Below are positions 807 to 20,336 of a stretch of 39,614 nucleotides of DNA, piece by piece; positions within the stretch are counted from its first letter, which is position 1, and each line of letters begins with the position of its first letter. The stretch spans positions 1-39,614 of the forward strand of contig NZ_QSDY01000013.1 of the NCBI RefSeq assembly GCF_003463825.1. Direction: 5' to 3'. This DNA comes from Veillonella sp. AM51-8BH (GTDB taxonomy: Bacteria; Bacillota; Negativicutes; Veillonellales; Veillonellaceae). A program made the translations under genes and the position numbers. A model generated the notes under the pieces. It saw only the letters and a program-made list of their open reading frames with translations. It had not been told where the DNA came from and ran no database searches.

Positions 807-836
807 AAAACCGAGGCGTAATGCCTCGGTTTTTGT
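807..836. terminator. Bidirectional Rho-independent terminator (bioY / YcgQ-like gene)
   Basis: Stem ACCGAGGC / GCCTCGGT with loop GTAAT, flanked by A-rich and T-rich tracts on both sides. It can therefore stop bioY on the plus strand and the convergent minus-strand gene ending at 887. Confidence 0.88.
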
Positions 837-886
837 TTATGGACTTATTTAAGATTGTTTAAGACTATCGGTTCAAGAGTGTTTGT

Positions 887-1651: not shown

Positions 1652-1703
1652 AGAATCATCTCCTTTTATATTCATGAAGAACTGAAATAGTAATGACTAA
1701 ACA

Positions 1704-4529: not shown

Positions 4530-5978
4530 TTATTGTAACTTAGCTAACAATGCTTTGAGGTATACATACACGTTTTCAACGGATGGTAAATGAACGCGTT
4601 CCATTGGTGTATGTGGACTTACGATAGTAGGGCCAAAGCTAATCATTTGGGTGTTTGGTAATACGCCTTTCAACAAGCCGCATTCAAGACCTGCATGAAT
4701 AGCGTTTACATTAGCTGGTGTATCAAACATTTCGTTATGTAAGGAAATAGCTTGTTCTTCAAGTTTGGAGCCTTTATCGTATTCCCATGCAGGATAACCA
4801 CCAGTACGCTCTGCAGATACACCTAGTGTTTTCGCAAGTAATATCATTTTCTTAGCCAAGAATTCAAGACTGTTGCTATTGGAGCTACGGATGGAAATGA
4901 GTACTTCAATAGTATGTTCGTTTTCTCGTACGATAGCGATGTTGTCAGAAGTTTCCACAAGATTTGGGATAGATTTGCTTACAGAATGAACACCATCTTG
5001 TGCAAGATAGATGTAAGTAATAAGAGCTTCTGTTGTGTCATCTGCGTATACTACATCAGGAGTAGCGACATCTTCTACAACAAATTTAAGACATGGATCT
5101 TGGATACCATATTCATGGAGATATTGCTTTTCTTGGTAGGCAATTAATGTTTTAATGGCCGCTACATCTTCAGCGCGTACGGATAATACAGCAACTGCTT
5201 TAGAAGGAATGGCATTATGTTTTACGCCACCTTCAAAGGATGCTAAGCATACAGGATATTGTTGTTGAATATCATAGAGTACACGTGTTAATACTTGGTT
5301 AGCATTAGCTCGTTGTTCGTTGATTTCGATGCCGGAGTGGCCACCTTTAAGGCCTGTTACGGTAAAAGATAAGCCTGCATCATAACCAGGTTGGTTGTTT
5401 TCGCGCAATAATGGAATATTTACGTGAACATGACAACCGCCAGCACAGCTAACAGTGAAGTCGTGTTCTACCTCTGTATCGAGATTGAGTAGGTAATCGC
5501 CACTTACTTGGCCTTCTTTAATGGCGAAAGCGCCATCCATGCCAGTTTCTTCATTGGTAGTGAACAATAATTGCATAGGTCCATGTTGTTGACTATCATC
5601 TTCGAGGATGGCAAGCATCATCGCACCACCCATACCGTTGTCCGCACCTAGTGTAGTGTGGTCTGCGTGCATCCATTCACCTTCGATGATGTTTGCAATA
5701 GGATCCTTGGAGAAGTCATGATTGGAGTCATGATCTCGTACACAAACCATATCGATATGGCCTTGTAAGATGATAGAAGGTCGGTTTTCATAACCTGGAG
5801 ACGCTGGCTTTTTGATGACTACATTAAATTGATCGTCTTGATGAACCTCAAGCCCCAAGTTTTTAGCGAAGTTTACGATATAATCGCTGATGCCTTTTTC
5901 GTTTCCTGATTCACGAGGAATTTGGCTCATTTCTTTAAATATTTCTAATACGCGTTTTGCTTGAACGATTGATTCCAT
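4530..5978 (-). CDS. pepD: Aminoacyl-histidine dipeptidase PepD (M20 metallopeptidase)
   Basis: This cytosolic zinc dipeptidase of 482 aa hydrolyses Xaa-His and other dipeptides. The metal and catalytic residues sit in their usual order: HID in LQGHIDMV, the bridging Asp in TTLGADNGMGG, the Glu pair in TNEETGMDG, the Asp in NLDTE, and the C-terminal His in SPHTPMERV. The length matches the PepD family (about 480 aa). ATG 5978 is preceded by AAAGGA at good spacing, whereas ATG 5999 is not. The gene is monocistronic, divergent from pncB, and has its own terminator. A 12-bp dyad overlaps its predicted -35 region. Confidence 0.93.
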   Translation of the reverse strand: MESIVQAKRVLEIFKEMSQIPRESGNEKGISDYIVNFAKNLGLEVHQDDQFNVVIKKPASPGYENRPSIILQGHIDMVCVRDHDSNHDFSKDPIANIIEGEWMHADHTTLGADNGMGGAMMLAILEDDSQQHGPMQLLFTTNEETGMDGAFAIKEGQVSGDYLLNLDTEVEHDFTVSCAGGCHVHVNIPLLRENNQPGYDAGLSFTVTGLKGGHSGIEINEQRANANQVLTRVLYDIQQQYPVCLASFEGGVKHNAIPSKAVAVLSVRAEDVAAIKTLIAYQEKQYLHEYGIQDPCLKFVVEDVATPDVVYADDTTEALITYIYLAQDGVHSVSKSIPNLVETSDNIAIVRENEHTIEVLISIRSSNSNSLEFLAKKMILLAKTLGVSAERTGGYPAWEYDKGSKLEEQAISLHNEMFDTPANVNAIHAGLECGLLKGVLPNTQMISFGPTIVSPHTPMERVHLPSVENVYVYLKALLAKLQ

Positions 5979-6296
5979 AATGGTTCCTTTCATTCTCATG
6001 TAAATAATAGATATATATGTTGATTGATTATACGGAATACTTAGTGTTTTTATTAGTATCTGAATTTGTAATACTAATAAAAGAGTTTATTCCAGTGATA
6101 ACTTTCACAGACATATATATGGAATATATAAAATAGTTTAGTATATATATAGTTATATCACAAGAATGATTATTAGGATAGTTAATAGAAACTGTAGTAT
6201 ATGTATGTACTAGCTATATAGGAATAATAATGTATAATGAGGATATACGATTAACGATTAATTAAATCCATTAGATTTTAGAAGGTTGGTGAACCG
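5979..6296. other. Divergent pepD/pncB regulatory region with a perfect 12-bp dyad
   Basis: A perfect inverted repeat TTTTATTAGTAT (6048-6059) / ATACTAATAAAA (6071-6082) with an 11-base spacer lies here. The minus strand has TATAAT at 6032-6027 as a likely pepD -10; its -35 position (6055-6050) falls inside the dyad. On the plus strand TATAAT at 6233-6238 is a candidate pncB -10 with a poor -35. No U-tract follows the dyad, so a terminator is unlikely. Confidence 0.5.
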
Positions 6297-7748
6297 ATGC
6301 AACACGACAGTCGCAATATTAGTATGCTTATGGATTTTTATGAGATGACCATGGCACACGGCTATTTTACACAACATGAAAATACGGATCGAGTCGCTTT
6401 TGATGTGTTCTTTAGACGCAATCCAGATAAGGGTGGCTTCGCCATTTTTGGTGGTCTTGAACAAATCGTTGAGTACATTTTAAATCTACACTTTGATGAA
6501 AGTGATATCGATTTTTTACGGAATCAAGGGATCTTTAGTGAGGAATTTCTAAACTATCTTAAAGATTTCTCCTTTACTGGTGATGTATATGCGTTCCCAG
6601 AAGGTTCTATTATTTATCCAAACGAACCAGTTATAACCATCGTAGCCCCTCTCATAGACGCACAAATCGTAGAAACTGCAGTGCTAACTATGATGAACCA
6701 TCAGTCCCTTATCGCTACAAAGGCTAATCGCATCGTTCGTGCTGCGGATGGGCGTGTAGTAGCCGATTTTGGGGCTCGTCGAGCTCATAATGTGGATGCC
6801 GCTGTATATGGTGCGAGAGCAGCCTACATTGGTGGGGTACAGTCTACGGCAACTGTTTTAGCGGGCCAACAATTTGGTATTCCTGTGAGTGGAACCATGG
6901 CTCATAGTTGGGTTATGTATCATGATTCTGAATACGAAGCTTTCAAAGCTTACGCTGAAGTGTATCCGGATGGGGCTGTATTCCTTGTTGATACCTATGA
7001 TGTATTAAACTCTGGGGTTCCTAATGCTATTAAAGTAGCTAAAGAGGTATTGGAACCTATGGGAAAACGCTTAAAAGGTATCCGCCTTGATTCAGGTGAC
7101 CTTGCGTACTTAGCAAAAAAAGCGCGTCGTATGCTTGACAAAGCAGGCTTAGAAGATTGCAAAATTATGGCTTCCAATAGTCTTGATGAATATACAATAA
7201 CCTCTTTATTGGGACAGGGTGGTCCCATTGATATCTTTGGTGTAGGTGAAAGACTGATTACCTCTAAGAGCGATCCTGTATTTGGCGCCGTATACAAGAT
7301 TGCTGGTGTTGAAAAGAATGGTGTGTGGGAGCCTCGCATCAAGATTTCTGAATCTGTTGAAAAGATTACGAACCCAGGCTTTAAAAAGGTGTATCGCGTA
7401 TACAATGATAAAGGGCGTGCCATTGCAGATTTAATAACATTGTTAGAAGAGGTGCCAGATACGACAGAACCATATCGTTATATCGATCCAGAACAACCAT
7501 GGCGTGAATTGTACTTTGAAAATTGCACCTTTAAAGAGATGAAACAACTCATTATTAAAGATGGCAAGCTTATCGTAAAATTGCCGACACTAGAAGAGCT
7601 TCGTCAATACGTTAAAGACCAATTAGACCGCGAAATTTGGTTAGAAGAACAGCGCTTTGAAAATCCACATCGCCATTACCTTGATATGAGTCCAGGATAC
7701 TATCAAATGAAAATGGATTTATTAAATCGTATTTTCCGGAAGAAATAG
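6297..7748 (+). CDS. pncB: Nicotinate phosphoribosyltransferase
   Basis: This enzyme converts nicotinate and PRPP to nicotinate mononucleotide, the entry step of NAD salvage (Preiss-Handler pathway). The 483-aa protein has the N-terminal YEMTMAHGYF, the central FGARRAHNVDAA, SGTMAHSWVM with the phosphorylated-type histidine, IRLDSGDL, and FGVGERLITSKSDPVFGAVYK near the PRPP site. All are typical of the longer Gram-positive PncB group. The start is ATG 6297; the upstream Shine-Dalgarno match (GAAGG) is modest. nadE follows after eight bases and performs the last pathway step, so the two are an operon. nadD is not in the window. Confidence 0.95.
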   Translation: MQHDSRNISMLMDFYEMTMAHGYFTQHENTDRVAFDVFFRRNPDKGGFAIFGGLEQIVEYILNLHFDESDIDFLRNQGIFSEEFLNYLKDFSFTGDVYAFPEGSIIYPNEPVITIVAPLIDAQIVETAVLTMMNHQSLIATKANRIVRAADGRVVADFGARRAHNVDAAVYGARAAYIGGVQSTATVLAGQQFGIPVSGTMAHSWVMYHDSEYEAFKAYAEVYPDGAVFLVDTYDVLNSGVPNAIKVAKEVLEPMGKRLKGIRLDSGDLAYLAKKARRMLDKAGLEDCKIMASNSLDEYTITSLLGQGGPIDIFGVGERLITSKSDPVFGAVYKIAGVEKNGVWEPRIKISESVEKITNPGFKKVYRVYNDKGRAIADLITLLEEVPDTTEPYRYIDPEQPWRELYFENCTFKEMKQLIIKDGKLIVKLPTLEELRQYVKDQLDREIWLEEQRFENPHRHYLDMSPGYYQMKMDLLNRIFRKK

Positions 7749-7756
7749 GAGGACTT

Positions 7757-8524
7757 ATGTTAGACAATCCAGAAGCAACAAAAGAGGCTGTCGTTCAATG
7801 GATTAGAGACTATTTTAGTCAAAATGGGCCTAGCTGTAGCGCCGTAGTAGGTGTTTCAGGTGGTAAGGATTCCACAATCGTAGCTGCTTTATGTAAAGAA
7901 GCCCTTGGGGCAGAACGCGTAGTAGGTGTTCTTATGCCGAATGGAATTCAGTCTGATATCGATGATGCCAAGGCTGTAGTGGCACATTTGGGGATTCCAC
8001 ATATCATAGTGAATATTGGAGTTGCCTATGAAGCTTTGACGAACGCTATCATTCAAGGTGAAGGTTATAAAGCAGTTACTGGTAGAACTGATATATCCAA
8101 GGATGCAGGAATTAATACACCACCGCGTCTTCGCATGACAACGCTATATGCAGTAGGACAAAATTTGCCAAATGGCGCACGCGTAGCTAATACATGTAAT
8201 GGATCTGAAGATTATGTAGGGTATTCTACAAAATATGGCGATAGTGCTGGAGATTTTAGTCCTCTTGCCAATCTTGTCGTAGAAGAGGTACGCCAAATAG
8301 GTCGATTACTTGATATTCCAAAATATCTTGTAGATAAGACGCCTAGTGATGGACTCAGCGGTCTATCTGATGAGGATAAATTAGGATTTACCTATGCTGT
8401 ATTAGATCGATATATTAGAACTGGAGAGATAGAAAATCCTGAAACGAAAGAACGTATTGATTATTTAAATCGTATTAATAAGCATAAATTAGAATTGATA
8501 CCGTCCTTTCACCCACAATGTTGA
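7757..8524 (+). CDS. nadE: Ammonia-dependent NAD+ synthetase
   Basis: NadE amidates nicotinate adenine dinucleotide to NAD+ using ATP and ammonia. This 255-aa protein has the PP-loop SGGKDST near residue 35, NTPPRLRMTTLY, CNGSEDYVGYSTKYGD and DKTPSDGLSGLSDEDKLGF, the standard NadE signatures. It has no nitrilase/glutaminase domain, so it is the free-ammonia type. AGGAGG overlaps the pncB stop and sits four bases before ATG. The asparaginase gene downstream could supply ammonia locally, which is inference. Confidence 0.95.
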   Translation: MLDNPEATKEAVVQWIRDYFSQNGPSCSAVVGVSGGKDSTIVAALCKEALGAERVVGVLMPNGIQSDIDDAKAVVAHLGIPHIIVNIGVAYEALTNAIIQGEGYKAVTGRTDISKDAGINTPPRLRMTTLYAVGQNLPNGARVANTCNGSEDYVGYSTKYGDSAGDFSPLANLVVEEVRQIGRLLDIPKYLVDKTPSDGLSGLSDEDKLGFTYAVLDRYIRTGEIENPETKERIDYLNRINKHKLELIPSFHPQC

Positions 8525-8613
8525 GAGAGGACTTGTTTTAGCTAGTCTAATTCATGCTAATGTTGATTAACAAAAGATTTACTATTTCTTATGTATTTTA
8601 TGATGGAGGTAAT

Positions 8614-9591
8614 ATGGAGACAAAAATTGCGTTGATTGGTACGGGCGGTACAATTGCTGGACAAGGCGCATCCGATACAGATTTGACGGGCTATACTGCA
8701 GGTGTACTAGGCCTCGATGAAATTTTAGACTCCGTACCAGGCACAGAACCATATGGTCCATATACATATACTCAGTTTAGTAATATTGAAAGTTCCGATA
8801 TTACGGTCCAGCATTGGTTGGATTTATCTAAGTTAGTACAAGAATTAGTAAATCAAGAGGATATAGGCGGGGTTGTTATTACTCATGGAACAGATAGCAT
8901 GGAGGAGACAGCTTATTTTCTTAATCTTACTGTTCGTACAGATAAACCTATCGTTATTACTGGCTCGATGAGACCTGCTGGGGCAATTAGTGCAGATGGT
9001 CCTATTAATTTATTACAAGCGATTCAAGTGGCAAGAACACCTGCATCTGTAGGTAAAGGTGTTCTTGTTGTTCTAAATGGCTATGTTGATGGGGCGCGTG
9101 ATGTGTCCAAACGGAATACAACTAATGTGGCTACCTTTGACAGTCCATTAGTAGGGCATCTTGGTATTGTCCAGGATGGTGTAGCTCATTATTATAAAGC
9201 CTCTACTCGTCGTCATACGAAAGAATCCATCTTTGATGTACATGACCTTAAGGAATTGCCTCGTGTAGTCATTTTGACTTGCTATGGCGGTATGGATGAC
9301 ATGGTGCCAATGAGTGTAGTTGCCACTAATCCTGATGGGCTCATCTTGACTGGATTGGGTCATGGTACAATTCCTCAAAATGTACGTCAAATAACACAAA
9401 ATACAGCATTTCCAACTGTACGTGCCTCTCGTACAGGGAGTGGCATGGTATCTGCTGTACCACAAGATGCACTAGCAGGCTATCTCGTAAGTGATACATT
9501 GAGCCCACAAAAAGCTCGTATTTTATTGATGCTGGGGCTTACAAAAACTAAAAATCTTAAAAAGTTACAACAGTTCTTCTATAAATATTAA
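8614..9591 (+). CDS. L-asparaginase
   Basis: This enzyme hydrolyses asparagine to aspartate and ammonia. The 325-aa protein has both catalytic signatures: IGTGGTIAG at the N-terminus (first Thr nucleophile) and VITHGTDSMEETAYFL (Thr-Asp pair plus Lys region), followed by ITGSMRPAGAISADGP. There is no signal peptide from the chosen start, so it is probably cytoplasmic. ATG 8614 is chosen because GGAGG lies five bases upstream; an in-frame ATG at 8554 would add an unconserved extension. The gene follows nadE by about 90 bases and is probably co-transcribed, ending at two successive terminators. Type I versus type II assignment is not secure. Confidence 0.92.
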   Translation: METKIALIGTGGTIAGQGASDTDLTGYTAGVLGLDEILDSVPGTEPYGPYTYTQFSNIESSDITVQHWLDLSKLVQELVNQEDIGGVVITHGTDSMEETAYFLNLTVRTDKPIVITGSMRPAGAISADGPINLLQAIQVARTPASVGKGVLVVLNGYVDGARDVSKRNTTNVATFDSPLVGHLGIVQDGVAHYYKASTRRHTKESIFDVHDLKELPRVVILTCYGGMDDMVPMSVVATNPDGLILTGLGHGTIPQNVRQITQNTAFPTVRASRTGSGMVSAVPQDALAGYLVSDTLSPQKARILLMLGLTKTKNLKKLQQFFYKY

Positions 9592-9605
9592 TTAGAAAAT
9601 AAAAA

Positions 9606-9637
9606 AAGATTTGAGAAAAACTCTCAAATCTTAATTT
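9606..9637 (+). terminator. Terminator after asparaginase gene
   Basis: An 11-bp perfect stem AAGATTTGAGA / TCTCAAATCTT with loop AAAAC, followed by AATTT. The weak U-tract may explain the second terminator downstream. Confidence 0.7.
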
Positions 9638-9687
9638 GATATTCATTTTCAAGTATTATACTATGTGTAACAGTTTTATATGCAATG

Positions 9688-9727
9688 AACCGCACATCCC
9701 GATCGCCTAGGATGTGCGGTTTTTTAT
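9688..9727 (+). terminator. Second strong terminator between asparaginase and cbiZ
   Basis: A 12-bp perfect stem AACCGCACATCC / GGATGTGCGGTT with a 10-base loop and a T6 run on the plus strand. The T run overlaps the stop codon of the convergent cbiZ gene. On the minus strand no U-tract follows, so it is mainly a plus-strand terminator. Confidence 0.82.
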
Positions 9728-10500
9728 TCGGCGCCAATAGCATTTTCTAAGGCCCGTTGTATACCTACATAAACCGCTTTAGCCAATGTGTCCCCAAATA
9801 GGGAGAAGGAGCCGGCATCCGTTAACACATCACCATTTGTATCTATGGTGAGAATGATACCGTCTGTGGATGTTCCTGTAGCAGAAGTCTTGCGTTCTTT
9901 TGTGATGGCATCAGGAATATCTTCGTTGATAAATGGATAGAGGCGTACACTTTCAACACCCCAATCTTGGAGGGCTGCGCTTTTAGCCTCCGTAATTGTC
10001 ATCATAGCTTTCACCATGGCGCTGTCAGTTAAGGCCTTATTCGTAAAGACTAGTATGTTGATTGTGCCAGGCGTCACAAACGCTCCGTCCCGTTCTTCAT
10101 AGCAATATCCTGTACCTGCACGATGGGCCGTTTTTTCATAGCCTGCAGTAACGATGGTCTCCACAATCGTATCGTGCTCCTCGCACTTGGCGTATGCGTG
10201 AAGGTTCATTGTAGCAGACGTAAGAAGGGCTGTACTAAAATGAACAGGTGTATCGATTTGCTCGAACTCTTGTGCTAAATAGTTGGCTACCGAGCCACCT
10301 GGTAAATCTTTTTCTGTTTCGATTTGGTATGTTAATTGTTGATTTCGTACGGCTAACGTATGGTGATACCCACCATTGAGTTGACCACTAGATAAGGCAT
10401 AATGGATGTCGTCAAAGTGTACTGTAACGGAACTTAATTCTTTCGTTACATGACCTCCTGTTGCAAGCTCTTGTGGTGCTTCATATGGATTGTTGAACAT
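9724..10500 (-). CDS. cbiZ: Adenosylcobinamide amidohydrolase CbiZ
   Basis: CbiZ removes the aminopropanol tail of adenosylcobinamide or pseudo-B12-type corrinoids to give adenosylcobyric acid for re-use. The 258-aa protein carries the CbiZ signatures LSSGQLNGGYHHTLAV, GTINILVFTNKAL, TEAKSAALQDWGV and SATGTSTDGI with the following glycine-rich segment. GGGAGA lies six bases before ATG. It stands alone here, divergent from the mscS-type gene, with no other cobalamin gene in the window and no cobalamin riboswitch recognised upstream. This fits a cell that scavenges and remodels corrinoids; the physiology is inference. Confidence 0.88.
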   Translation of the reverse strand: MFNNPYEAPQELATGGHVTKELSSVTVHFDDIHYALSSGQLNGGYHHTLAVRNQQLTYQIETEKDLPGGSVANYLAQEFEQIDTPVHFSTALLTSATMNLHAYAKCEEHDTIVETIVTAGYEKTAHRAGTGYCYEERDGAFVTPGTINILVFTNKALTDSAMVKAMMTITEAKSAALQDWGVESVRLYPFINEDIPDAITKERKTSATGTSTDGIILTIDTNGDVLTDAGSFSLFGDTLAKAVYVGIQRALENAIGAE

Positions 10501-10565
10501 GTAAGTCTCCCTAGATTTAGATTGTTATATATATAATATAAGGATATAATAGTTTTACTAAATTA

Positions 10566-10601
10566 TTGTAAAATACATATGTTAGATTATAACACATATG
10601 T
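10566..10601 (+). promoter_or_regulatory. Putative promoter of the MscS-family gene, overlapped by a dyad
   Basis: TTGTAA (10566-10571) and TATAAC (10588-10593) are separated by 16 bases. An imperfect inverted repeat, ACATATGTTA (10575-10584) / TAACACATATGT (10590-10601), covers the spacer and -10. Confidence 0.42.
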
Positions 10602-10663
10602 TTATTTCGAATATATTTCCGATTCTACCGAATGAGCGTTATATTTTATTCATGGAGGTTAGT

Positions 10664-11593
10664 ATGAGTGATCTTTTAAATAGGGCTTCTGAATTACTGT
10701 TTAAAGATGCTAATGTATTGATTCAATTTCGAGATTGGTTCTTTTCTCAAGCGGGTAATATATTATTAGCTCTTATTATATTTTGGGTAGGTCGTTATGC
10801 TATTAAATGGGTGAAAACCTTTGCTGTCCGTATTATGACTAAGGCCTCTTATGACTCTGCTGCGATGAGCTTTATTACGCAGATCATCAATTATGCATTG
10901 CTAGTAGGTCTAATATTGATTTGCTTAAATCAAATTGGTGTTCCTACTACATCCTTTGTTGCTGCCTTTGGTGCCTTTGGTTTAGGTATTGGTTTGGCCT
11001 TACAAAACAACTTATCTAACTTGGCATCAGGCTTATTAATTCTTATATTTAAGCCTTTTAGAGCAGGTCATGTTATTCAAGTTGGAGATACTGTAGGTAG
11101 TGTTAAGTCTATTCAATTTATGTATACTATTATCACTACTAAAGATCAAAAAAATGTGTATATACCAAACTCTATCCTTACCTCCCAAGCCATAACTAAT
11201 ATTGCTTATACCCACGAAAGGGTTATCCCGTTCGTCTTTGATATTGGTTATAACAATAATCATCATGAAGCAATTAAAATTTTAAAAAATATTTTTGCTG
11301 CTGATAAACGTGTACTCAATCCTAAAAATATGGAAATTGGTATTTCTGAATTTGGCGATAACTCTGTACGCATTGCTGCCTATGCACGCGTTAAGTCGAA
11401 AGACTTCTTAGATGTGCAATATGGAATTATGTCTGATGTAAAAGATGCGTTCGATAAATATGGTATCGACATTCCATATCCTCAACGTGTTGTATATCTT
11501 CAAAATGTAGATAACTCTACTGGTGAAATTAAGGGAACTAAGAAAAAGGCAAGTGGAACGGATGTTGCCATTGATGATACCCCTGAAAGTTAA
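10664..11593 (+). CDS. MscS-family mechanosensitive ion channel
   Basis: This 309-aa inner-membrane channel opens under membrane tension to release solutes on hypo-osmotic shock. It has three N-terminal membrane segments. The pore-lining TM3 is rich in Gly and Ala (FGAFGLGIGLALQNNLSNLA), followed by the beta domain (FRAGHVIQVGD, VYIPNSIL) and a C-terminal alpha/beta part with a charged tail. ATG 10664 has GGAGG five bases upstream, so the in-frame ATG at 10598 is not used. The carboxypeptidase gene follows by 24 bases. This is the small, minimal MscS layout. Confidence 0.92.
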   Translation: MSDLLNRASELLFKDANVLIQFRDWFFSQAGNILLALIIFWVGRYAIKWVKTFAVRIMTKASYDSAAMSFITQIINYALLVGLILICLNQIGVPTTSFVAAFGAFGLGIGLALQNNLSNLASGLLILIFKPFRAGHVIQVGDTVGSVKSIQFMYTIITTKDQKNVYIPNSILTSQAITNIAYTHERVIPFVFDIGYNNNHHEAIKILKNIFAADKRVLNPKNMEIGISEFGDNSVRIAAYARVKSKDFLDVQYGIMSDVKDAFDKYGIDIPYPQRVVYLQNVDNSTGEIKGTKKKASGTDVAIDDTPES

Positions 11594-11617
11594 TATGTAA
11601 TGTAGAAAGTGAGATAA

Positions 11618-12475
11618 ATGATATCTTTAACAACTAATGTAAATATACTTTTGAAACGACTTATTTTGATGATAGCCTTTATAGGCGCTATTATTTTTGG
11701 TACTAGTGTTTCTCATGCGGCGTATATTGCGCCGCCATCTACGATAGGTGAGGCAGTTGTTCTCATTGATGCGGATACAAAAGAAATCCTATTTGCAAAG
11801 AATCCTGATAAGTGGATGCATCCTGCGAGCACTACGAAAATGGTTACCTTGTTAACAGCTCTAGAACTCAAAGGTACACAACTTGATGAACTGGCGACTA
11901 TTAGTAGTTATGCCACTAGTATGGAGGAATCCAATCTGGGGGTTCGTGTCGGAGATCAAATTACCTTGGAAGGCGTTCTTGAAGGCATGATGGTTGCCAG
12001 CGGTAATGATGCGGCCGTTGTAGTAGCAGAAAATGTAAGTGGCTCTGTAGAGAACTTTGCAAAGGACATGAATCGCGTTGCTGCAAAAGCAGGGGCAAAA
12101 AATAGTGTGTTTTTAAATCCTCATGGTTTGACACAAATGGGCCATCACTCTACGGCTCGTGACTTGGCGATGATTGCAGCGTATGGTATGAAATACCAAA
12201 TGTTCCGAGATAAAGTAGCCAATGATTATTATAAGGTGCCTTATCAAAACCGTACGCCAGAAACAATTCGCACTACAAACCATTTCATTCGCAATAAATA
12301 TCCCGGTGCTAATGGTTTAAAAACTGGCTTTACGAATGCTGCAGGGGAATGCTTGATTGCATCGGCTACCCGTAATGGTCATACTATGATTGTAGTTATG
12401 CTTAACGATGATAACCGTTGGGATGAAGCAGTACAATTCCTTGATTATGGATTTAAACTTCGCGGTGTAATTTAG
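11618..12475 (+). CDS. D-alanyl-D-alanine carboxypeptidase (DacA/DacF type, S11)
   Basis: This low-molecular-mass penicillin-binding protein trims the terminal D-Ala of peptidoglycan stem peptides. The 285-aa precursor has a signal peptide (Lys-Arg then LILMIAFIGAIIFG, cleavage probably after SHA). All three active-site motifs are present: STTK (Ser71-Lys74), SGN (128-130) and KTG (235-237). It ends about 50 residues after KTG, so it lacks the C-terminal beta-rich PBP5 domain and amphipathic anchor. It may therefore be periplasmic and soluble, or held by an uncleaved signal. Its stop codon lies in the first unit of a 13-bp tandem repeat. Confidence 0.92.
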   Translation: MISLTTNVNILLKRLILMIAFIGAIIFGTSVSHAAYIAPPSTIGEAVVLIDADTKEILFAKNPDKWMHPASTTKMVTLLTALELKGTQLDELATISSYATSMEESNLGVRVGDQITLEGVLEGMMVASGNDAAVVVAENVSGSVENFAKDMNRVAAKAGAKNSVFLNPHGLTQMGHHSTARDLAMIAAYGMKYQMFRDKVANDYYKVPYQNRTPETIRTTNHFIRNKYPGANGLKTGFTNAAGECLIASATRNGHTMIVVMLNDDNRWDEAVQFLDYGFKLRGVI

Positions 12476-12502
12476 TGGTGTAATTTAGCGATGTAATCTA
12501 AT
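12464..12502. repeat. Three tandem 13-bp units across the carboxypeptidase stop
   Basis: Units start at 12464, 12477 and 12490. The first two share GGTGTAATTTAG exactly and the third is degenerate (GATGTAATCTAA). The stop codon TAG at 12473-12475 belongs to unit one. Confidence 0.75.
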
Positions 12503-12574
12503 TGAGCATGATTAGAGAATATCTTGAGTAAACCTAATATAATTTAAGTTCCATAGTTAAATGAATAGTATTAA

Positions 12575-12601
12575 AATAGGTCCTGCCATGCAGGACCTAT
12601 T
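12575..12601 (+). other. Perfect 12-bp hairpin in the yfbR leader
   Basis: AATAGGTCCTGC and GCAGGACCTATT are perfectly complementary around a CAT loop. No U-tract follows. It ends nine bases before the yfbR Shine-Dalgarno sequence, so it is better read as an mRNA 5' structure or processing site than as a terminator. Confidence 0.6.
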
Positions 12602-12617
12602 ATGTAATGGGGGACAT

Positions 12618-13208
12618 ATGAGTTCATTTTTTGCATTTTTAAAACGCATGCGCTTTATCAATCGATGGAGTCTCATGCGTAATACAGAAACAGAAAATAT
12701 TCAAGAACATAGCTTAGAAGTAGCTATGGTGGCACATAATTTAGCGGCACTCAAAAATGAATACTTTGGTGGCAATGTAGACATTAATAAGGTAGCTGTC
12801 ATTGCCATGTACCATGAAGTGAGTGAAATCTTTACTGGCGATATGCCAACACCGATTAAATATTTTGATCCAAAGCTTCGTGAACTATATGGCGAAGTTG
12901 AAACGTTGGCACAAGAGAAAATGCTATCTACCTTGCCAGAACGATTACAAGCTATCTATAAGCCTTTTATTGTAGATGCAGAAGAGAGTCCTGAATGGCC
13001 CATCGTTAAGGCCGCAGATACAATCTCAGCGTATATGAAATGTGTGAACGAACTCAAAGCAGGAAACGATGAGTTTAAAGAAGCACATGACTCTATCTTG
13101 GCAAAATTAAAATCATTAAATATGCCAGAAGTTGATATGTTCCTTGAAACCTATATGCCTGCACTTGGAAAAAGTTTGGATGAACTAAACTACTACGAAA
13201 TCAAATAA
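12618..13208 (+). CDS. yfbR: YfbR-type 5'-deoxynucleotidase (HD-domain)
   Basis: YfbR dephosphorylates deoxyribonucleoside 5'-monophosphates in the cytosol. The 196-aa protein follows E. coli YfbR closely along its length: MRFINRWSLMRNTETEN, EHSLEVAMVAHNLA, FTGDMPTPIKYF and VKAADTISAYMKC. The usual second metal motif His-Asp reads His-Glu here (MYHEVSE), a conservative but notable change. ATG 12618 is chosen because a G-rich Shine-Dalgarno (GGGGG) lies just upstream; an in-frame ATG at 12561 would read through the leader hairpin. It is the last gene before a strong bidirectional terminator. Confidence 0.9.
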   Translation: MSSFFAFLKRMRFINRWSLMRNTETENIQEHSLEVAMVAHNLAALKNEYFGGNVDINKVAVIAMYHEVSEIFTGDMPTPIKYFDPKLRELYGEVETLAQEKMLSTLPERLQAIYKPFIVDAEESPEWPIVKAADTISAYMKCVNELKAGNDEFKEAHDSILAKLKSLNMPEVDMFLETYMPALGKSLDELNYYEIK

Positions 13209-13247
13209 TGATTAAAAAAGAGACGACCAGAGGTCGTCTCTTTTTAT
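13209..13247. terminator. Bidirectional terminator shared by yfbR and the candidate sRNA
   Basis: Stem AAAAAGAGACGACC (13215-13228) / GGTCGTCTCTTTTT (13232-13245) with loop AGA. Read on the plus strand it ends in T5. Read on the minus strand it ends in U6. Confidence 0.92.
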
Positions 13248-13353
13248 TCTATAAAAATAGCCATAACATCTTAATAGACGTCACAGCCATTTTACATCTC
13301 AAATAAAGTTTTAGAGATGAGCTGGACGTTCCTAGGCATCTAGCTATCTCTGT
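13213..13353 (-). ncRNA. Candidate small RNA of about 140 nt (unassigned)
   Basis: A perfect sigma-A-type promoter faces into this 200-base gap between convergent genes, and the only thing it can transcribe ends at the intrinsic terminator at 13245-13215. The predicted RNA folds as a rod: ATAGC pairs with GCTAT (13347-13343 / 13261-13257), then an open internal loop, then ACGTC/GACGT, CAGC/GCTG and CATCTC/GAGATG closing an A/U-rich loop near 13301-13313. A separate 3' terminator hairpin follows. There is no good reading frame with a Shine-Dalgarno. It could also be produced from the queG 3' UTR. I recognise no Rfam family. Confidence 0.6.
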
Positions 13354-13359
13354 TATTTT

Positions 13360-13388
13360 ATTATATGTTTTTGCTAAACAGATGTCAA
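13360..13388 (-). promoter_or_regulatory. Perfect consensus promoter of the candidate sRNA
   Basis: On the minus strand TTGACA (13388-13383) and TATAAT (13365-13360) are separated by exactly 17 bases. Transcription would start near 13353 and run toward 13213. It lies downstream of queG on the same strand and precedes no protein-coding gene. Confidence 0.8.
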
Positions 13389-13437
13389 AGCCTGTAAAGC
13401 TTGTAAAGGTATTATAAAGTATAAAAAATTATAATAT

Positions 13438-14313
13438 CTATTTACGTTCAATAATATTTTGATTTCTCATTAATATTTTTTTCCCCCGCCACGAGAATGC
13501 CCGATTGCCATACTTAGCTTTGAATTCTTTGTTTGTTAGGGTCTCTAGTTCGTTAATATCTATGTACGGTTCTACGTGTTGAAATTCAGGTATGGGCGTT
13601 GTTGGGATATTTTGATTATGGGGACAGACCTCTTGGCATACATCGCAGCCAAATACGAGTGGCGTTTTTCCTATGATGATTTCCTCCTCGTTTGTAAGAT
13701 CTCCTTTTTTCTGTGTTAAGTAGCTTTTACAGGTATCATATTTAAATTCGTCATGACCTAAACATTGCCCTAAGCAAGCCGTAATACACCGATTGCATCC
13801 TATACAGGACTGAGCGAGCGGTGTATTTGGCTCTAATTCTAAGGTAGTTAAAATTGTTCCAATGACTACATAGGAACCCCACTTAGGACTGATGAAACAA
13901 TTGTTTTTGCCGTAGAAACCAAGGCCTGCTAAGTAGGCCATGTAACGATCTGCGAGGGGAGAGGTGTCACAATGTATAGAAAACTGGGCTGAAGTATTCA
14001 TTTTTTGTAATTTTTCAGTAAGTTTTTCTAAATATTCATTAATGACCAGGTGATAATCTGTAGCCCATGTATAGCGGGAAAGATTAGATGGACCACTACG
14101 TTCTACGTAGTATGGGAAGAGGCATACTATAGCGCTTTTGGGCGTAAACTCTGTTGTTCCTAGCAATCGCTCTTCTACGTCGGCTGCTGTAAATGGACAG
14201 GGGTTGCTTTCATACAAAATAGTTTTTGCATTTTCAGGTAGGGGCCAAGGGGCAATACCAAATTCATAAATATGTAATTCTTTGCAAAATTCTTGTAAAT
14301 TTATATCTTTCAT
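13438..14313 (-). CDS. queG: Epoxyqueuosine reductase QueG
   Basis: QueG performs the last step of queuosine biosynthesis, reducing epoxyqueuosine in tRNA with a corrinoid and two [4Fe-4S] clusters. The 291-aa protein has the catalytic-Asp segment CDTSPLADR, then GLGFYGKNN and GSYVVIGTILTT. Cysteine clusters follow: CIGCNRCITACLGQCL and CDVCQEVCPHNQ, with a further Cys at CKSYLT. It ends with the NREFKAKYGNRAF-like tail typical of the core and lacks the C-terminal HEAT-repeat region of longer homologues. No clear Shine-Dalgarno precedes ATG 14313. Dependence on a cobamide cofactor links it to the CbiZ corrinoid salvage gene nearby. Confidence 0.88.
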   Translation of the reverse strand: MKDINLQEFCKELHIYEFGIAPWPLPENAKTILYESNPCPFTAADVEERLLGTTEFTPKSAIVCLFPYYVERSGPSNLSRYTWATDYHLVINEYLEKLTEKLQKMNTSAQFSIHCDTSPLADRYMAYLAGLGFYGKNNCFISPKWGSYVVIGTILTTLELEPNTPLAQSCIGCNRCITACLGQCLGHDEFKYDTCKSYLTQKKGDLTNEEEIIIGKTPLVFGCDVCQEVCPHNQNIPTTPIPEFQHVEPYIDINELETLTNKEFKAKYGNRAFSWRGKKILMRNQNIIERK

Positions 14314-14467
14314 CGTAGATTTAGTAGCGAATAATTGGTAAAATAAAAGTATAAGAAACGTGAGGAATTCTATAGATTCCTGCTAGGTTTGTAGTTCGGT
14401 GATATCTGTATTTTTATGGTTATCATCCAGTACTGTTAGTATTAGTATACCATTGAGAGGACAGATT

Positions 14468-15250
14468 ATGTTAGCATTTATGAAAGTATTACAACCGAAG
14501 ACGGTGGAAGAGGCTTATGAATTAGCCACAAAAAACAAAACTGCCCCAATGCTAGCTGGCGGCTGTTGGTTGCGTTTAGGTCGACGCACATGGCCTGCAG
14601 TGATTGATATGGCTAGTCTTGACTTGCGTTATGTTCGTGAAGAGGATAACGAATTTGCCATTGGTGCTATGGCAACGCAAGGTGATGTGGAACGTTTTGA
14701 GCCATTACAACAATTTTGTGGTGGTGCTGTTGTTAAAGGTGTTAAGGAAATTCTTGGCATTCAATTCCGCAACACAGCTACTATGGGTGGATCTGTAGCA
14801 AGTAAATTCGGCTTTTCTGATATAATTCCGGCTCTATTGGCAGTACATGCAGACATCGTTACTTTTAAAGGTGGTCGCATGTCCATGCAAGACTATATGA
14901 AATACAGAGAACGTGATATCCTCGTGGAAATTCGCATTCCTAAAGTAGAGGTACCTGTAGCTGTTGAAGCTCTTCGTATCTCTCGTGGCGATTTCCCAGT
15001 ATTGACAGGTGCTATTCGCCGTGATGATAAAGGCGTTGAATTGTACATTGGTACAAGACCTGGCGTACCTCAATTAGCAGAAAAAGCAAGTGCTTTGCTT
15101 TCAGAAAAAGGATTGGCTGCAGCAAAAGAAGCCGGTCAATTAGCATCTGAAGAATTAGTTTACCAATCTAACTCTCATGCGTCCAAAGAATACCGCATGG
15201 AAATGGTAAAAGCAATGGTTCAACGCTTGGCTAAGGAGGTGGCACAATAA
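14468..15250 (+). CDS. Xanthine dehydrogenase-type FAD-binding subunit
   Basis: This is the medium (flavin) subunit of a molybdenum hydroxylase of the xanthine dehydrogenase family, 260 aa. It has the N-terminal PKTVEEAYELA, the flavin pyrophosphate loop near MLAGGCWLRLGRR, and GIQFRNTATMGGSVASKF with the downstream GFSDIIPALLA, as in FAD_binding_5 proteins, plus the C-terminal CO dehydrogenase flavoprotein domain. ATG 14468 has GAGAGG upstream; the in-frame ATG at 14399 is unsupported. It is the first of an eight-gene operon and overlaps the next gene by one base (TAATG). Confidence 0.92.
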   Translation: MLAFMKVLQPKTVEEAYELATKNKTAPMLAGGCWLRLGRRTWPAVIDMASLDLRYVREEDNEFAIGAMATQGDVERFEPLQQFCGGAVVKGVKEILGIQFRNTATMGGSVASKFGFSDIIPALLAVHADIVTFKGGRMSMQDYMKYRERDILVEIRIPKVEVPVAVEALRISRGDFPVLTGAIRRDDKGVELYIGTRPGVPQLAEKASALLSEKGLAAAKEAGQLASEELVYQSNSHASKEYRMEMVKAMVQRLAKEVAQ

Positions 15251-15705
15251 TGGAATTAGTACTTAATATTAATAATAAAAATGTAACTGTTAATGTGCCA
15301 ACTGATGAAATGTTGTTGGATACATTGCGTAATCTTGGTTATTACAGCGTACGTTGTGGCTGTGACACAACAAACTGTGGTCTTTGCACTGTATGGGTAG
15401 ATGACGAAATTATCTTGTCTTGTGCGTATCCTACATTCCGTGCCCCAGGTCACAAAATTACTACATTAGAAGGCTTACAAGAAGAGGCTGAATTATTGGC
15501 GGATTGTATTGCTAGTGAAGGTGCTGACCAATGCGGTTTCTGCACAACTGGCATGATGATGAGTGCTATCAACTTGAAACGTAAAAATCCAAAGGCTAGT
15601 GATGATGAAATCCGCGAGTACCTCATCGGTAACTTGTGCCGTTGTACTGGCTATGAATCACAACTTCGAGGGGTTCGTAAATTCTTAGAAGGAGGCCTGA
15701 AATAA
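15250..15705 (+). CDS. Xanthine dehydrogenase-type 2Fe-2S subunit
   Basis: The small electron-transfer subunit, 151 aa. The plant-ferredoxin-type cluster uses C38-x4-C43-x2-C46-x11-C58 (CGCDTTNCGLC, then LSC). The second, helical cluster uses CGFC near residue 97 and CRC in GNLCRCTGYE. The length is normal for the family. AAGGAGG precedes the start, and both its start and stop overlap the neighbouring genes as TAATG, so the three subunits are translationally coupled. Confidence 0.95.
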   Translation: MELVLNINNKNVTVNVPTDEMLLDTLRNLGYYSVRCGCDTTNCGLCTVWVDDEIILSCAYPTFRAPGHKITTLEGLQEEAELLADCIASEGADQCGFCTTGMMMSAINLKRKNPKASDDEIREYLIGNLCRCTGYESQLRGVRKFLEGGLK

Positions 15706-17999
15706 TGAATAAGCACATCGGTAAGTCCTATGACAAAGTTGACTATAAAGGTATCTTGTCTGGTAAACCATCTTATACAGGTGATTTTGTTCCAAAAGAT
15801 GCGCTCGTTATTAAGGTACTTCGTAGCCCTCATGCACAGGCGCGCATTAAATCTATCGATACATCTAAAGCTAAATTGATTCCAGGCGTTGAAGCAATCT
15901 TCACACATGAAGATGTGCCGAATACTCGCTTTACATTGGCCGGTCAAACATATCCAGAACCATCTGCTTATGATGCGCTCATCTTGGATCCTGTAGTTCG
16001 CTATGTAGGCGATGAAGTGGCTCTTGTTGTGGCAAAAGATGAAGCTACAGCACTTAAAGCGATGCCTCTAATCAAGGTTGAATACGAAGTACAAAAACCT
16101 GTACTCGATATGCATACAGCTATCGACCATGAAACAGTAGTTCACCCTGAAGATGATATTCACAATAATATCCCTGTAGGTCAAGATTATAAACGCAATA
16201 TTTGCGTATCCTATCATAAACGAGTAGGCGATATTGAGGCTGAACTTGCAAAATGTGATTATGTAGTAGAAGGTACTTACTTTGACCAAGCGACACGTCA
16301 AACAGCGATGGAACCGTTTCAAAGCTTTGGTTATATAGATACATTGGGCCGCGTAGTTATCGTATCTTCCACACAAATCGTATTCCATGTGCGTCGACAT
16401 ATTGCGCGTGCACTTGGTATTCCTGCGACAAAGGTTCGTGTAATTAAACCTCGTATCGGCGGTGGTTTTGGTTCTAAACAAACGGCTTGTACAGAAATTA
16501 TGACAGCTTTTGTGGCATGGACATTGAAGAAACCTTGCTATCTTTTATACGATCGTACAGAAGCGCAAACGTGCTCCACTACACGTCATGCTCGTGAATG
16601 GAAAATCCGCGTAGGTGCTACAAAAGACGGTATTATCAAAGTAATTGATATGGACTCCATTACTGATGCAGGTGCTCATGCAACTCACTGCTTCACTACT
16701 ACTACAGCTGGTGAGCATAAGTCCATTCCTTTATACAATAAAGCGACAGCAATTCACTACGGTACAGAAGGTGTATACATGAACCATACACCAGGTGGTG
16801 CATTCCGTGGTTATGGTGCTACTGAAGCGTTGTGGCCTTTAGAGTGTGCTGTTAATAACTTGGCGGATAAAATGGGGGTAGACCCTGCTGAATTGCGTCA
16901 AAAGAACTTGATTGCTCAAGGTGAACAAAGCTTGGTATATGCTCCAGATGAATATCTTGATTCTGGTTTGTTCCAAGACACTGTAAACTGCGTAAAAGAA
17001 ATGGCTCGTTGGGATGAACGTCCTCATTCTTGGGATATTGACGAACGTTATCGCGGTGGCCTTGGCATGGCATTGGCATTACAAGGTTCTGGTGTTGCTA
17101 ACATTGATGTAGCATCTGTAGAAATTCGTCTCGGTGATGATGGTAACTACACATTGTATACTGGTTCTTCCGATATGGGCATGGGGGCTAATACTGTATT
17201 GACTCAAATGGCTTGTGAAATCATCGGCTGTCCTATGGAATACATGACAGTTGTTGAATCCGATACAGACATCGTACCATTTGATCCAGGTTCCTATGCA
17301 TCTAGTACAACATACGTAACTGGTACGGCTGCTAAGATGGCTGCTGAAGAATTACGCACTAAGATTATTGCTAAGTTCGCTCAATTCTTCAATACAGATG
17401 TAGAGAACATCGACTTTGATGGCGTTGTGGCTACTACAAAAGATGGTTCCCAAACAATGGATATCCATCAATTGGCTCCAAAATTATTGGTAGGTGTTAA
17501 CGCTGAACAATTGTCTGGTTTTGCTACATGGGGCAGTCATACATCCCCACCACCATTCATGGCAACTATTGCAGAGGTGAAAGTAGACAAACAAACTGGT
17601 AAGGTTATTCCTCTTCATACATACTCCTGTATCGATTGCGGTACTGTTATTAACCCTAAATTGGCTCGCGTTCAAGTTGAAGGCGGCGTGGTACAAGCTA
17701 TCGGTATGGCACTATATGAAGATGTGCGTTATTCCAATAATGGTCGCTTAGAGACTAATAACCTTATGACTTATAAAATTCCAACCCGTCAAGATATCGG
17801 TGAGTTACATGTAGACTTTGTAGAATCTTACGAACCGACAGGCGGATTTGGTGCTAAATCTATTGGTGAAGTTGTTATTAATACGGCTAGTCCAGCTATT
17901 CAACATGCTATTAAAAATGCAGTTGGTGCGGATGTTCGTACATTACCTATGACACCTGAGAAGGTATTTATGGCTATGGACGAGAAATATAAAGTATAG
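15705..17999 (+). CDS. Xanthine dehydrogenase-type molybdenum-binding catalytic subunit
   Basis: This 764-aa subunit binds the molybdopterin cofactor and carries the active site for hydroxylating purines or related heterocycles. Signatures: YTGDFVPKDALVIKVLRSPHA at the start, GGGFGSKQTACTEI, GGAFRGYGATEALWP, GSYASSTTYVTG, and the catalytic-Glu segment GGFGAKSIGEVVINTASPA near the C-terminus. Together with the FAD and 2Fe-2S genes it forms a three-subunit enzyme. The yqeB and yqeC genes downstream mark the selenium-dependent subgroup, so a labile selenium ligand on Mo is likely, but that cannot be read from this sequence. Xanthine is the likeliest substrate; purine or nicotinate hydroxylation are alternatives. 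Confidence 0.92.
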   Translation: MNKHIGKSYDKVDYKGILSGKPSYTGDFVPKDALVIKVLRSPHAQARIKSIDTSKAKLIPGVEAIFTHEDVPNTRFTLAGQTYPEPSAYDALILDPVVRYVGDEVALVVAKDEATALKAMPLIKVEYEVQKPVLDMHTAIDHETVVHPEDDIHNNIPVGQDYKRNICVSYHKRVGDIEAELAKCDYVVEGTYFDQATRQTAMEPFQSFGYIDTLGRVVIVSSTQIVFHVRRHIARALGIPATKVRVIKPRIGGGFGSKQTACTEIMTAFVAWTLKKPCYLLYDRTEAQTCSTTRHAREWKIRVGATKDGIIKVIDMDSITDAGAHATHCFTTTTAGEHKSIPLYNKATAIHYGTEGVYMNHTPGGAFRGYGATEALWPLECAVNNLADKMGVDPAELRQKNLIAQGEQSLVYAPDEYLDSGLFQDTVNCVKEMARWDERPHSWDIDERYRGGLGMALALQGSGVANIDVASVEIRLGDDGNYTLYTGSSDMGMGANTVLTQMACEIIGCPMEYMTVVESDTDIVPFDPGSYASSTTYVTGTAAKMAAEELRTKIIAKFAQFFNTDVENIDFDGVVATTKDGSQTMDIHQLAPKLLVGVNAEQLSGFATWGSHTSPPPFMATIAEVKVDKQTGKVIPLHTYSCIDCGTVINPKLARVQVEGGVVQAIGMALYEDVRYSNNGRLETNNLMTYKIPTRQDIGELHVDFVESYEPTGGFGAKSIGEVVINTASPAIQHAIKNAVGADVRTLPMTPEKVFMAMDEKYKV

Positions 18000-18040
18000 A
18001 GGTTTCTATTTACTTTTCCTTTCTAAGGAGGCCTGGTTTT

Positions 18041-18798
18041 ATGACATCACAAACATCCTATTGGAATCGATTGATTCAGCCGGGAATCGTGGCCCTCGTT
18101 GGGGCTGGCGGTAAAACGACTGTGCTTTCAAAATTAGTAGAATATGGACGCCTGAAAGGTCAGCCTATCGTAGTTACGACTACGACTCGACTCTATGAAT
18201 CTCAAGTGGCTCATTATGAACCGATTTATACTCGAAATATTAATGAAGCCGATGAATATTGTACTGATCGTGTGTTACGTGGATATTGTGGTGCGTGGTT
18301 CTCTGGAATTACGGGAACAAAAGTAGACTCCTTAGATTGTGATCTTATCGATGGTTTAGCAAAGTTACATCCGAACTGGCAAATTGTAGTAGAAGCAGAT
18401 GGGGCAAAGGAAAAATGGCTTAAGGCGCCTAAGACGACCGAGCCAGTTATCCCATCTCTTACAAAGACCACCATTGGTCTAGTGAATTTGCAAATGTTAG
18501 GGGCCCTCTAGATGATGAGCACGTACATAATATCGAGCTCGTTCAAGATATCGTGAAACGCGATATGGGTGCCATTGTAACACCGCGCATGTTAGCCGAC
18601 CTTGTGCTTCATAAACAAGGCTTATTCCAATACAGTAAGGGTAAAAAAATACTCTTCTGTACTGGTTATGAAACGGTGCAACATCGTATCATTGATGATT
18701 TTATTGATCATATTGTAGATAGCGATATTTCCGATATCATCTTAGCTGATGGATATAAAGCAAGTTGCGAAATCCGTCGCATTATTCAATGTCGGTAG
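18041..18798 (+). CDS. yqeC: YqeC-type selenium-dependent hydroxylase maturation protein (one-base frameshift as written)
   Basis: A P-loop protein of the YqeC family, with IVALVGAGGKTTVLSKL near the N-terminus and VVEADGAKEKWLKAP in the middle. The reading frame stops at 18509-18511 (TAG), then continues in another frame from about 18512 with DEHVHNIELVQDIV and IVTPRMLADLVLH. One missing C in the CCC run at 18504-18506 explains this, and restoring it gives 252 aa, the expected family length. AAGGAGG precedes ATG 18041. The family co-occurs with yqeB in operons of selenium-dependent molybdenum hydroxylases. I treat it as one gene with a probable sequencing deletion. Confidence 0.82.
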
Positions 18799-18804
18799 GT
18801 ACTC

Positions 18805-19527
18805 ATGACTTATGTGAAAGCAAAATCTAATAGCGCTTTCAGTCCCATGAGAGACCCCATAGACCGTCACCCTTTGCATATTGGTATTGTCCTCCTCGTA
18901 GGGGGACAATCCAAGCGCATGGGGTGTAATAAGCAGCTTTTACCCTGGCGTGGTAAAACTGTTTTAGATGCGGTCTGTGGGGCTCTTCATTGTGGATGGG
19001 AAGATTATGTAAAACCTGCTGAATTCTGTAAACTACCTTTTGTAGCGGTTACTGGTGACGATCATGAAAAATTGGAACCTATTGTTACAAGCTATGGGTT
19101 CGAAGTAGTTCGGAATGAACATCCTGAGCGTGGACAGGGTCTGTCCATAGCGATAGGAGTACGTTATTTGGTAGAAAAATCACCGATATCGCTAGATGGC
19201 ATTCTTTGTTCTGTAGGGGATCAACCACTACTGACTGGGAATGTTGTACATCAGGTTATTAGTGCATTTAGTGATAACTTTCATTCGAAAACTATCGTCG
19301 TCCCGCATTATGGGGCGAATTATCAGTCGGGAAATCCTGTTCTCTTTGGTTCGCATTGGTTTGAATCTTTACAACATATCCAAGGGGACCAAGGTGGCAA
19401 GACCATCATTCGTGGTGATGGTAAAGATCATGTTATCAAACTATGGATTCGTGACGATATTGGATATGATATCGATACACCCGATGATTTTGAGCGTTTA
19501 AAAGAACGTGAAAGTGAGGCATTATGA
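18805..19527 (+). CDS. mocA: Molybdenum cofactor nucleotidyltransferase (MocA-like)
   Basis: MocA-type enzymes add CMP to Mo-molybdopterin to make the MCD cofactor used by xanthine dehydrogenase-family enzymes. The 240-aa protein starts its fold at IVLLVGGQSKRMGCNKQLLP (nucleotide-binding loop and conserved Lys), followed by RGQGLSIAIG, SVGDQPLL and a C-terminal DIDTPDDF, all NTP-transferase features. Residues 1-28 precede the conserved domain and may be partly untranslated, since the Shine-Dalgarno (GGTAGG) is weak. Its stop overlaps yqeB as ATGA. Confidence 0.88.
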   Translation: MTYVKAKSNSAFSPMRDPIDRHPLHIGIVLLVGGQSKRMGCNKQLLPWRGKTVLDAVCGALHCGWEDYVKPAEFCKLPFVAVTGDDHEKLEPIVTSYGFEVVRNEHPERGQGLSIAIGVRYLVEKSPISLDGILCSVGDQPLLTGNVVHQVISAFSDNFHSKTIVVPHYGANYQSGNPVLFGSHWFESLQHIQGDQGGKTIIRGDGKDHVIKLWIRDDIGYDIDTPDDFERLKERESEAL

Positions 19528-20336
19528 AACCATTAGTGCTTATGCGTGGAGGCGGAGATATCGCTTCTGGCGCTGTATATAGATTGAAACGTGCAGGCTA
19601 TCCGGTAGTGATTAACGAAATCGCTATTCCTACCATGATTCGCCGTGAAGTTTGTTACGGCAATGCTGTGCATCGTGGCGAAATGATTTTGGAACGCTTT
19701 GTAGCTCGTCATGTAGCCCTTAGCGAAGTAAAGGATACATTGGCACAAGGTGTTATTCCTGTAGTAACTAGCTCCTATGAAGAGTTATTAGATACATTGA
19801 AGCCAGCCATTGTGGTGGATGCTATCTTAAGCAAAAAAAATCTTGGTACCAAACGAGATGATGCAGACCTTGTTATCGGTGTGGGCCCTGGTTTTACTGC
19901 AGGAGTCGATGTGGATGTGGTTATTGAAACCATGCGCGGTCATTCCTTAGGCCGTTGTATCTACGATGGCCCGGCGCAACCTAATACGGGTATTCCTGGT
20001 AATGTAGGTGGTTATACTCATGAGCGTGTTATTCACTCTCCAAAGGCTGGTCTATTTACAGCTAAGCGTCATATTGGAGATTCTGTACAAGCCAATGAAG
20101 TCATTGGTTATGTAGATGAAGAGCCCGTACGGGCAAAAATTACAGGTATTCTTAGAGGTATTCTTAAGAGCGGGCTTATCGTATCCGACCATTTTAAATT
20201 GGCCGATGTAGATGCTCGTTGTGAAGAATCTCATTGTTATAGTATTTCAGATAAATCTCTCGCTGTTGGTGGTGGCGTTTTAGAAGCTGTTACTGCATGG
20301 GATTATGAAAGGAATCAAGATGGAAACGATCTATGA
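19524..20336 (+). CDS. yqeB: YqeB / EF2563-family selenium-dependent molybdenum hydroxylase maturation protein
   Basis: This 270-aa protein matches the EF2563-type family: VLMRGGGDIASGAVYRL at the start (a Rossmann-like glycine loop), INEIAIPTMIRREVCYG, VVDAILSKKNLGT, VIGVGPGFTAGVDVD, and a C-terminal barrel-sandwich-like segment HSPKAGLFTAKRHIGD. The family is a marker for selenium-dependent molybdenum hydroxylases and is thought to help install the selenium ligand; its exact reaction is unknown. Overlaps with mocA (4 bases) and with the next gene (17 bases) show tight coupling. Confidence 0.9.
   Translation: MKPLVLMRGGGDIASGAVYRLKRAGYPVVINEIAIPTMIRREVCYGNAVHRGEMILERFVARHVALSEVKDTLAQGVIPVVTSSYEELLDTLKPAIVVDAILSKKNLGTKRDDADLVIGVGPGFTAGVDVDVVIETMRGHSLGRCIYDGPAQPNTGIPGNVGGYTHERVIHSPKAGLFTAKRHIGDSVQANEVIGYVDEEPVRAKITGILRGILKSGLIVSDHFKLADVDARCEESHCYSISDKSLAVGGGVLEAVTAWDYERNQDGNDL

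Follow-up and report, generated by a model that had tools for sequence, protein, structure and literature searches.

The window analyzed here, a 39,614-base stretch of Veillonella sp. AM51-8BH DNA, carries between two protein-coding genes a strong promoter and a structured RNA gene. We read this element from its sequence, with a probability of about 0.88, as the gene of an orphan antitoxin RNA, left behind when a chromosomal type I toxin-antitoxin module lost its toxin gene by deletion. The antitoxin reading is supported by the layout of related loci, homology, covariation, the absence of the toxin and the conservation of the RNA. What had been a promoter-and-hairpin gap becomes, on this reading, a defined element of a multi-copy type I toxin-antitoxin family, found in Veillonella and some members of its class. 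No Rfam family matched it at the loci searched; its kind is already known, both as type I toxin-antitoxin systems and as orphan RNA antitoxins.

The gap comprises 229 bases without a gene, between two frames which we take to be yfbR (12561-13208, plus strand, 215 aa) and queG (13438-14313, minus strand, 291 aa). The original prediction described a mismatch-free TTGACA-17-TATAAT on the minus strand of this gap as the only full-consensus promoter of the window. Both statements hold: the motif at 13388-13360 is the sole exact match in the 39,614 bases, where 0.04 are expected, and at least one exact match appears in 3 of 100 shuffled windows. The implied exceptional standing of this promoter needs correction, since a near-consensus promoter is a trait of the RNA family: 60 of the 63 strong Veillonella loci (defined below) show 11 or 12 of the 12 consensus bases, with a spacer of 17 in all 60. 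A consensus scan of positions 5000-20000 listed the gap promoter first and picked up neither terminator hairpin of the gap; its totals (50 promoter-like and nine terminator-like elements) were not above those of shuffles. A held-out model match, covariation and conservation give good support to the proposal of a non-coding RNA transcribed from a promoter of its own. The features of the gap are collected in Table 1.

Table 1. Features in and around the putative orphan antitoxin RNA gene (positions in the window).
Feature	Position	Strand	Basis
-35 hexamer TTGACA of the RNA promoter	13383..13388	-	exact consensus; same in V. infantium T11011-4 and Veillonella sp. T11011-6
-10 hexamer TATAAT, spacer 17 nt	13360..13365	-	exact consensus
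Putative antitoxin RNA, about 100 nt	13252..13353	-	held-out covariance model R2, E 7.1e-7; R1 and R3 (locus included) also match
5' hairpin (AGAGAUAGCU...AGCUCAUCUCU, inner GAUG/CGUC)	13313..13351	-	fold and covariation
Second hairpin, probably terminator of the RNA	13254..13293	-	fold; in several distant matches, GGCC...GGCC leads into a run of T
Terminator hairpin of 14 pairs, probably that of yfbR	13215..13245		perfect stem; present also in V. parvula SKV38
Putative TAG stop codon left over from the toxin gene	13258..13260	+	window letters; alignment to V. infantium

The limits of the RNA are inferred: it would start 7 nt past the -10 hexamer and end at its terminator hairpin. This start agrees with the one predicted originally, near 13353, while the length would be about 100 nt, with an end near 13252, instead of the predicted 140 nt or so. 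The difference lies in the choice of terminator. The perfect 14-pair stem assigned to the RNA does exist at 13215-13245, but it is probably the terminator of yfbR, since it is kept in the gap of V. parvula SKV38, which shows no RNA; the RNA itself probably ends at 13293-13254. The DNA of this second hairpin would also have lain at the 3' end of the mRNA of the toxin now missing. Compared with shuffled sequences, the minus strand of the gap has a much more stable fold (z -7.3 when the hairpin at 13215-13245 is included), and the fold of 13252-13353 gives a z of -5.2. When seven RNAs of the family were folded singly, all seven showed the same two hairpins, with a small third hairpin between them in one.

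The original prediction drew the transcript as a rod with an open internal loop, recalling 6S RNA. The rod as drawn has an energy of -18.3 kcal/mol, and the best fold with the rod pairs enforced reaches -29.7 kcal/mol, at least 5.6 kcal/mol worse than the two hairpins (-35.3 kcal/mol). A covariation analysis of the family used alignment A4, with 82 distinct sequences among its 90 matches; a few matches are doubtful and one is the shortened remnant of the nearest genome, G001. The analysis supports a structured RNA in the form of two hairpins. In A4, the pairs of this structure are formed in 93.5% of the cells, 13 of its 20 pairs are changed on both sides and none of 500 shuffles is as good, all with a bias in its favor, as A4 was fitted to this structure. 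A 14-sequence alignment was too uniform to discriminate, with one pair changed on both sides. The rod is paired in 64.4% of the cells of A4, with its outer stem (91.6%) and middle helix (75%) better kept than its CATCTC/GAGATG terminal helix (27%), and on three of five measures it does better than every one of 500 shuffles; parts of the rod, above all the two better kept helices, may therefore belong to an alternative conformer. A4 also allows pairing between the 3' arm of hairpin 1 and the 5' arm of hairpin 2, with changes on both sides in some cases, as another possible alternative conformer.

A 6S-like regulator of RNA polymerase is accordingly a reading to which we give almost no weight. 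The rod can be drawn, and its well-paired outer stem and its score against shuffles speak for it; against it stand the lower stability of the rod, its poorly paired terminal helix and the results with the 6S model itself. RF00013 gives no match at the window gap, and in all 18 relatives searched it exceeds its cut-off elsewhere in the genome, where the ordinary 6S RNA sits. With neither a covariance-model match nor a rod with a large central bubble at the gap, 6S RNA was rejected.

Covariance models were used to define the family. As the window locus is among the 14 aligned RNAs of model R1, a second model, R2, was made of 15 sequences that exclude the window type. R2 matches 13252-13353 on the minus strand (E 7.1e-7), and this is its sole match in the window at E values up to 10. 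R1 matches were found in 20 of 28 genomes of the bacterial family, with up to 10 per genome; across the class, 35 of 380 genomes gave matches. When 398 sampled genomes of the phylum were searched with strict filters, two genomes matched, both in the class of the window, and the RNA was not found outside this class. The Rfam search proposed with the original prediction was run at 13190-13440: no family exceeds its gathering score. Known Rfam small RNAs, including enterobacterial ones, were rejected since all matches at the gap are below the cut-offs, and at eight relative loci Rfam reports tRNA alone. On this Rfam basis (the window gap and the eight loci), no match to a described antitoxin RNA family such as RatA or SR4 was found. 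No description of the RNA family in Veillonella was found in the literature among the matches listed, and the words "toxin" and "antitoxin" are absent from the available part of a metatranscriptome study in which Veillonella and new ncRNAs are mentioned (PMC7160235). Viral contigs contain no match to the exact RNA pattern, and phage and plasmid records none to one intact module (401 bases, V. rogosae locus L056), in both cases with more diverged copies escaping such a search; a mobile element was rejected on these results.

The convergent frames facing the RNA were surveyed at 89 matches, namely 81 of the 84 R1 matches in family genomes and eight of 17 additional rows of the class search. Loci with an E of at most 1.6e-10 were considered strong (63 loci in 14 genomes of the genus Veillonella), and toxin frames were considered intact when full-length with E < 1e-15. 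An intact convergent frame encoding a 33-aa hydrophobic peptide is present at 45 of the 63 strong loci and absent at the other 18. Conversely, 45 of 46 intact toxin frames lie beside the RNA, and the 46th lies at a contig end. Two features of type I modules are thus found. A small hydrophobic peptide gene (<60 aa) is present at the 45 strong relatives and in the corresponding gap of V. infantium and absent in the window; and the RNA has its own promoter and runs convergent with the toxin gene, so that, judging from the sequence, the two transcripts would overlap. A weaker, toxin-like frame at G011:C17:43137-43208 (E 7.2e-7) lacks a neighboring RNA match.

Among the 26 other RNA matches, we count 12, weaker and mostly from other genera, that lie opposite frames of the MSxYEVLSLMIAF type with 22-29 aa. 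Five of six such peptides tested exceed the cut-off of Pfam Hol_Tox (PF16935, putative holin-like toxins), and one of those above it comes from the genus of the window (G009). Through these matches, an RNA model derived from the RNAs of a single bacterial family gives an independent lead to a recognized toxin family. The 33-aa peptides of Veillonella differ in this respect: all five tested are below the gathering score of 23.3, the best with 17.3 bits. Arrays of a second peptide, a 25-aa Hol_Tox peptide, occur in V. rogosae (L175) and in genome G021 (L176); about 50 bases downstream of all eight of their frames lies a distant relative of the RNA, matched weakly and by the broad model R3 only (E 0.003-0.035).

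The same gap was compared by a DNA search of the 28 family genomes, BLAST of the loci and an alignment of seven gaps. It was recovered in several relatives, and weaker, dispersed copies of the RNA were found elsewhere in those genomes, with the same layout and related 33-aa peptides, or in some copies without a peptide. In V. infantium T11011-4 (G013), the gap holds the RNA, its promoter and an extra stretch. Convergent with the RNA, this stretch encodes a hydrophobic peptide of 33 aa, and the stop codon of the peptide falls inside the terminator hairpin of the RNA. In Veillonella sp. T11011-6 (G019), the RNA and promoter are present and the toxin stretch is missing, as in the window. The gap of G001 lacks the promoter, the 5' half of the RNA and the toxin, and that of V. 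rogosae (G018) lacks the promoter, the 5' half of the RNA and part of the toxin; no RNA was seen in the gaps of V. parvula SKV38 (G020) and G016. Conservation in close relatives, one of the points on which the original prediction could fall, is divided: promoter and RNA are kept in V. infantium and Veillonella sp. T11011-6, while the promoter is lost in G001 and V. rogosae.

The loss of the toxin in the window is consistent with a 238-bp deletion between AAAAATA repeats, both of which are still found in V. infantium. An unrooted tree of queG and yfbR groups Veillonella sp. T11011-6 with the window and G001, so in the simplest history the toxin would have been lost once, before these lineages separated, and the RNA gene would later have disappeared from G001. 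The 18 strong loci without an intact toxin further suggest that such orphaning recurs.

A similar word of about 14 nt (GATAGTYAGACGAG type) occurs at the 5' end of the RNA and in the toxin leader, beyond chance, at 43 of the 45 intact loci. As it is inverted in the DNA, the 3' arm of the 5' hairpin of the RNA would be complementary to the toxin leader. Predicted pairings were considered to pass when at most 10 of 200 shuffles did better. The 3' arm against the leader beats the shuffles at 18 of 45 loci, and the first 62 nt of the RNA pass at one of 12 loci, being no better than shuffles at the other 11; a second contact may thus exist. Against the five intact paralogous leaders of Veillonella sp. 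T11011-6, the 3' arm of the window RNA ranks 2, 3, 49, 66 and 75 among 200 shuffles, a mixed outcome in which pairing is predicted for the first two and not for the other three, and against the leader of its former partner in V. infantium it ranks 24 of 200. All five toxin leaders folded have their purine-rich ribosome site inside a hairpin.

Taken as a type I module, the system would work as follows. The strong promoter would yield an RNA of about 100 nt ending at the second hairpin. At intact loci, it would be transcribed towards the gene of the 33-aa hydrophobic peptide, a putative membrane toxin, antisense to the 3' end of its mRNA. Pairing of both 3' ends would stop translation and lead to cleavage of the duplex, perhaps with a contribution from the repeat conserved in toxin leaders. 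In the window the RNA alone would remain, either neutralizing paralogous toxins in trans or as a slowly decaying relic.

These two fates leave the identity of the element unchanged and concern its present role. That the gene is a neutral relic, decaying since the loss of its toxin, is a serious possibility which we place somewhat short of even odds. The orphan RNA is dispensable in G001, because its promoter and 5' half were lost there; V. rogosae has lost the promoter together with part of the toxin, and promoters are weakened at three of the 18 toxin-less loci. The other 15 retain at least 11 of 12 promoter bases, which argues against simple decay, as does the conservation of the RNA. Between the window and Veillonella sp. 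T11011-6, the RNA has changes at 3 of 102 sites, compared with 42 of 174 for fourfold sites in the flanking genes; between the window and V. infantium, 1 of 102 RNA sites and 74 of 167 fourfold sites are changed. The binomial probabilities of so few RNA changes, with sites taken as independent, are 3.5e-9 and 9.6e-25, respectively. The V. infantium comparison includes time with the toxin and the T11011-6 comparison is without it if the toxin loss was shared; short-patch recombination could produce the same picture. A more specific proposal, in which selection keeps orphan antitoxin RNAs as trans-acting guards and one toxin-less RNA silences several resident or incoming modules via its conserved 5' hairpin arm, which would be complementary to a repeat common to the leaders of paralogous toxin mRNAs, is speculative and, in our judgment, rather unlikely. 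The repeated loss of the toxin with the RNA kept (18 of 63 loci) offers a natural series in which to ask whether orphan antitoxins stay functional.

A stand-alone, trans-acting regulatory RNA, unrelated to toxins and with toxin pairing as a secondary matter, would fit the conserved structure, the strong promoter and the persistence of the RNA at the 18 of 63 loci where no intact toxin is left. We consider it improbable, as the convergent peptide gene at 45 of 63 loci, the position of 45 of 46 intact peptide genes beside the RNA and the Hol_Tox peptides facing the weaker matches all stand against it. The antitoxin reading has points against it as well, namely the scores of the Veillonella 33-aa peptides below the Hol_Tox cut-off, the leader pairing at only 18 of 45 loci (one of 12 for the longer segment), the G011 frame without an RNA, the loss of the promoter and 5' half of the RNA in G001, and short-patch recombination as a possible source of the apparent conservation.

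The antitoxin reading has parallels in known systems. In fst/RNAII (par), toxin and antitoxin share a terminator and make a second, repeat-based contact near the toxin start; the Veillonella layout recalls both, in a likeness of layout alone. In Bacillus subtilis TxpA/RatA, BsrG/SR4 and BsrE/SR5, the peptide mRNA and the antisense RNA pair at their 3' ends over 100-140 bp (PMC6562991). The Veillonella loci resemble them in joining a small hydrophobic peptide gene to an antisense RNA, and the 3' pairing proposed here is drawn from that analogy. They differ in that the Veillonella RNA has about 100 nt and two hairpins, whereas SR4 and SR5 have four stem-loops (PMC6562991), and in that the window RNA has no Rfam match, has lost its toxin and is, in the phylum sample, confined to the class of the window. 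Antitoxin RNAs that outlive their toxin are also described for Escherichia coli, where about 30% of genomes have orz without an intact zor and OrzP was seen by Northern blot in MG1655 (PMC11264685). Orphan OrzP is comparable by description, zor/orz being another type I family, and had already raised the question of function in orphan antitoxins (PMC11264685).

Elsewhere in the window, a glmS ribozyme/riboswitch at 29737-29898 (plus strand) is the only Rfam match above its cut-off. Three adjoining frames at 14399-17999 (plus strand) presumably encode the FAD, iron-sulfur and catalytic subunits of a molybdenum hydroxylase (xanthine dehydrogenase-like). In V. rogosae, the RNA occurs four times in a span of about 10 kb (locus L056, positions 1-14001), among repeated frames whose products look secreted; three of these copies have an intact toxin and the fourth has none.
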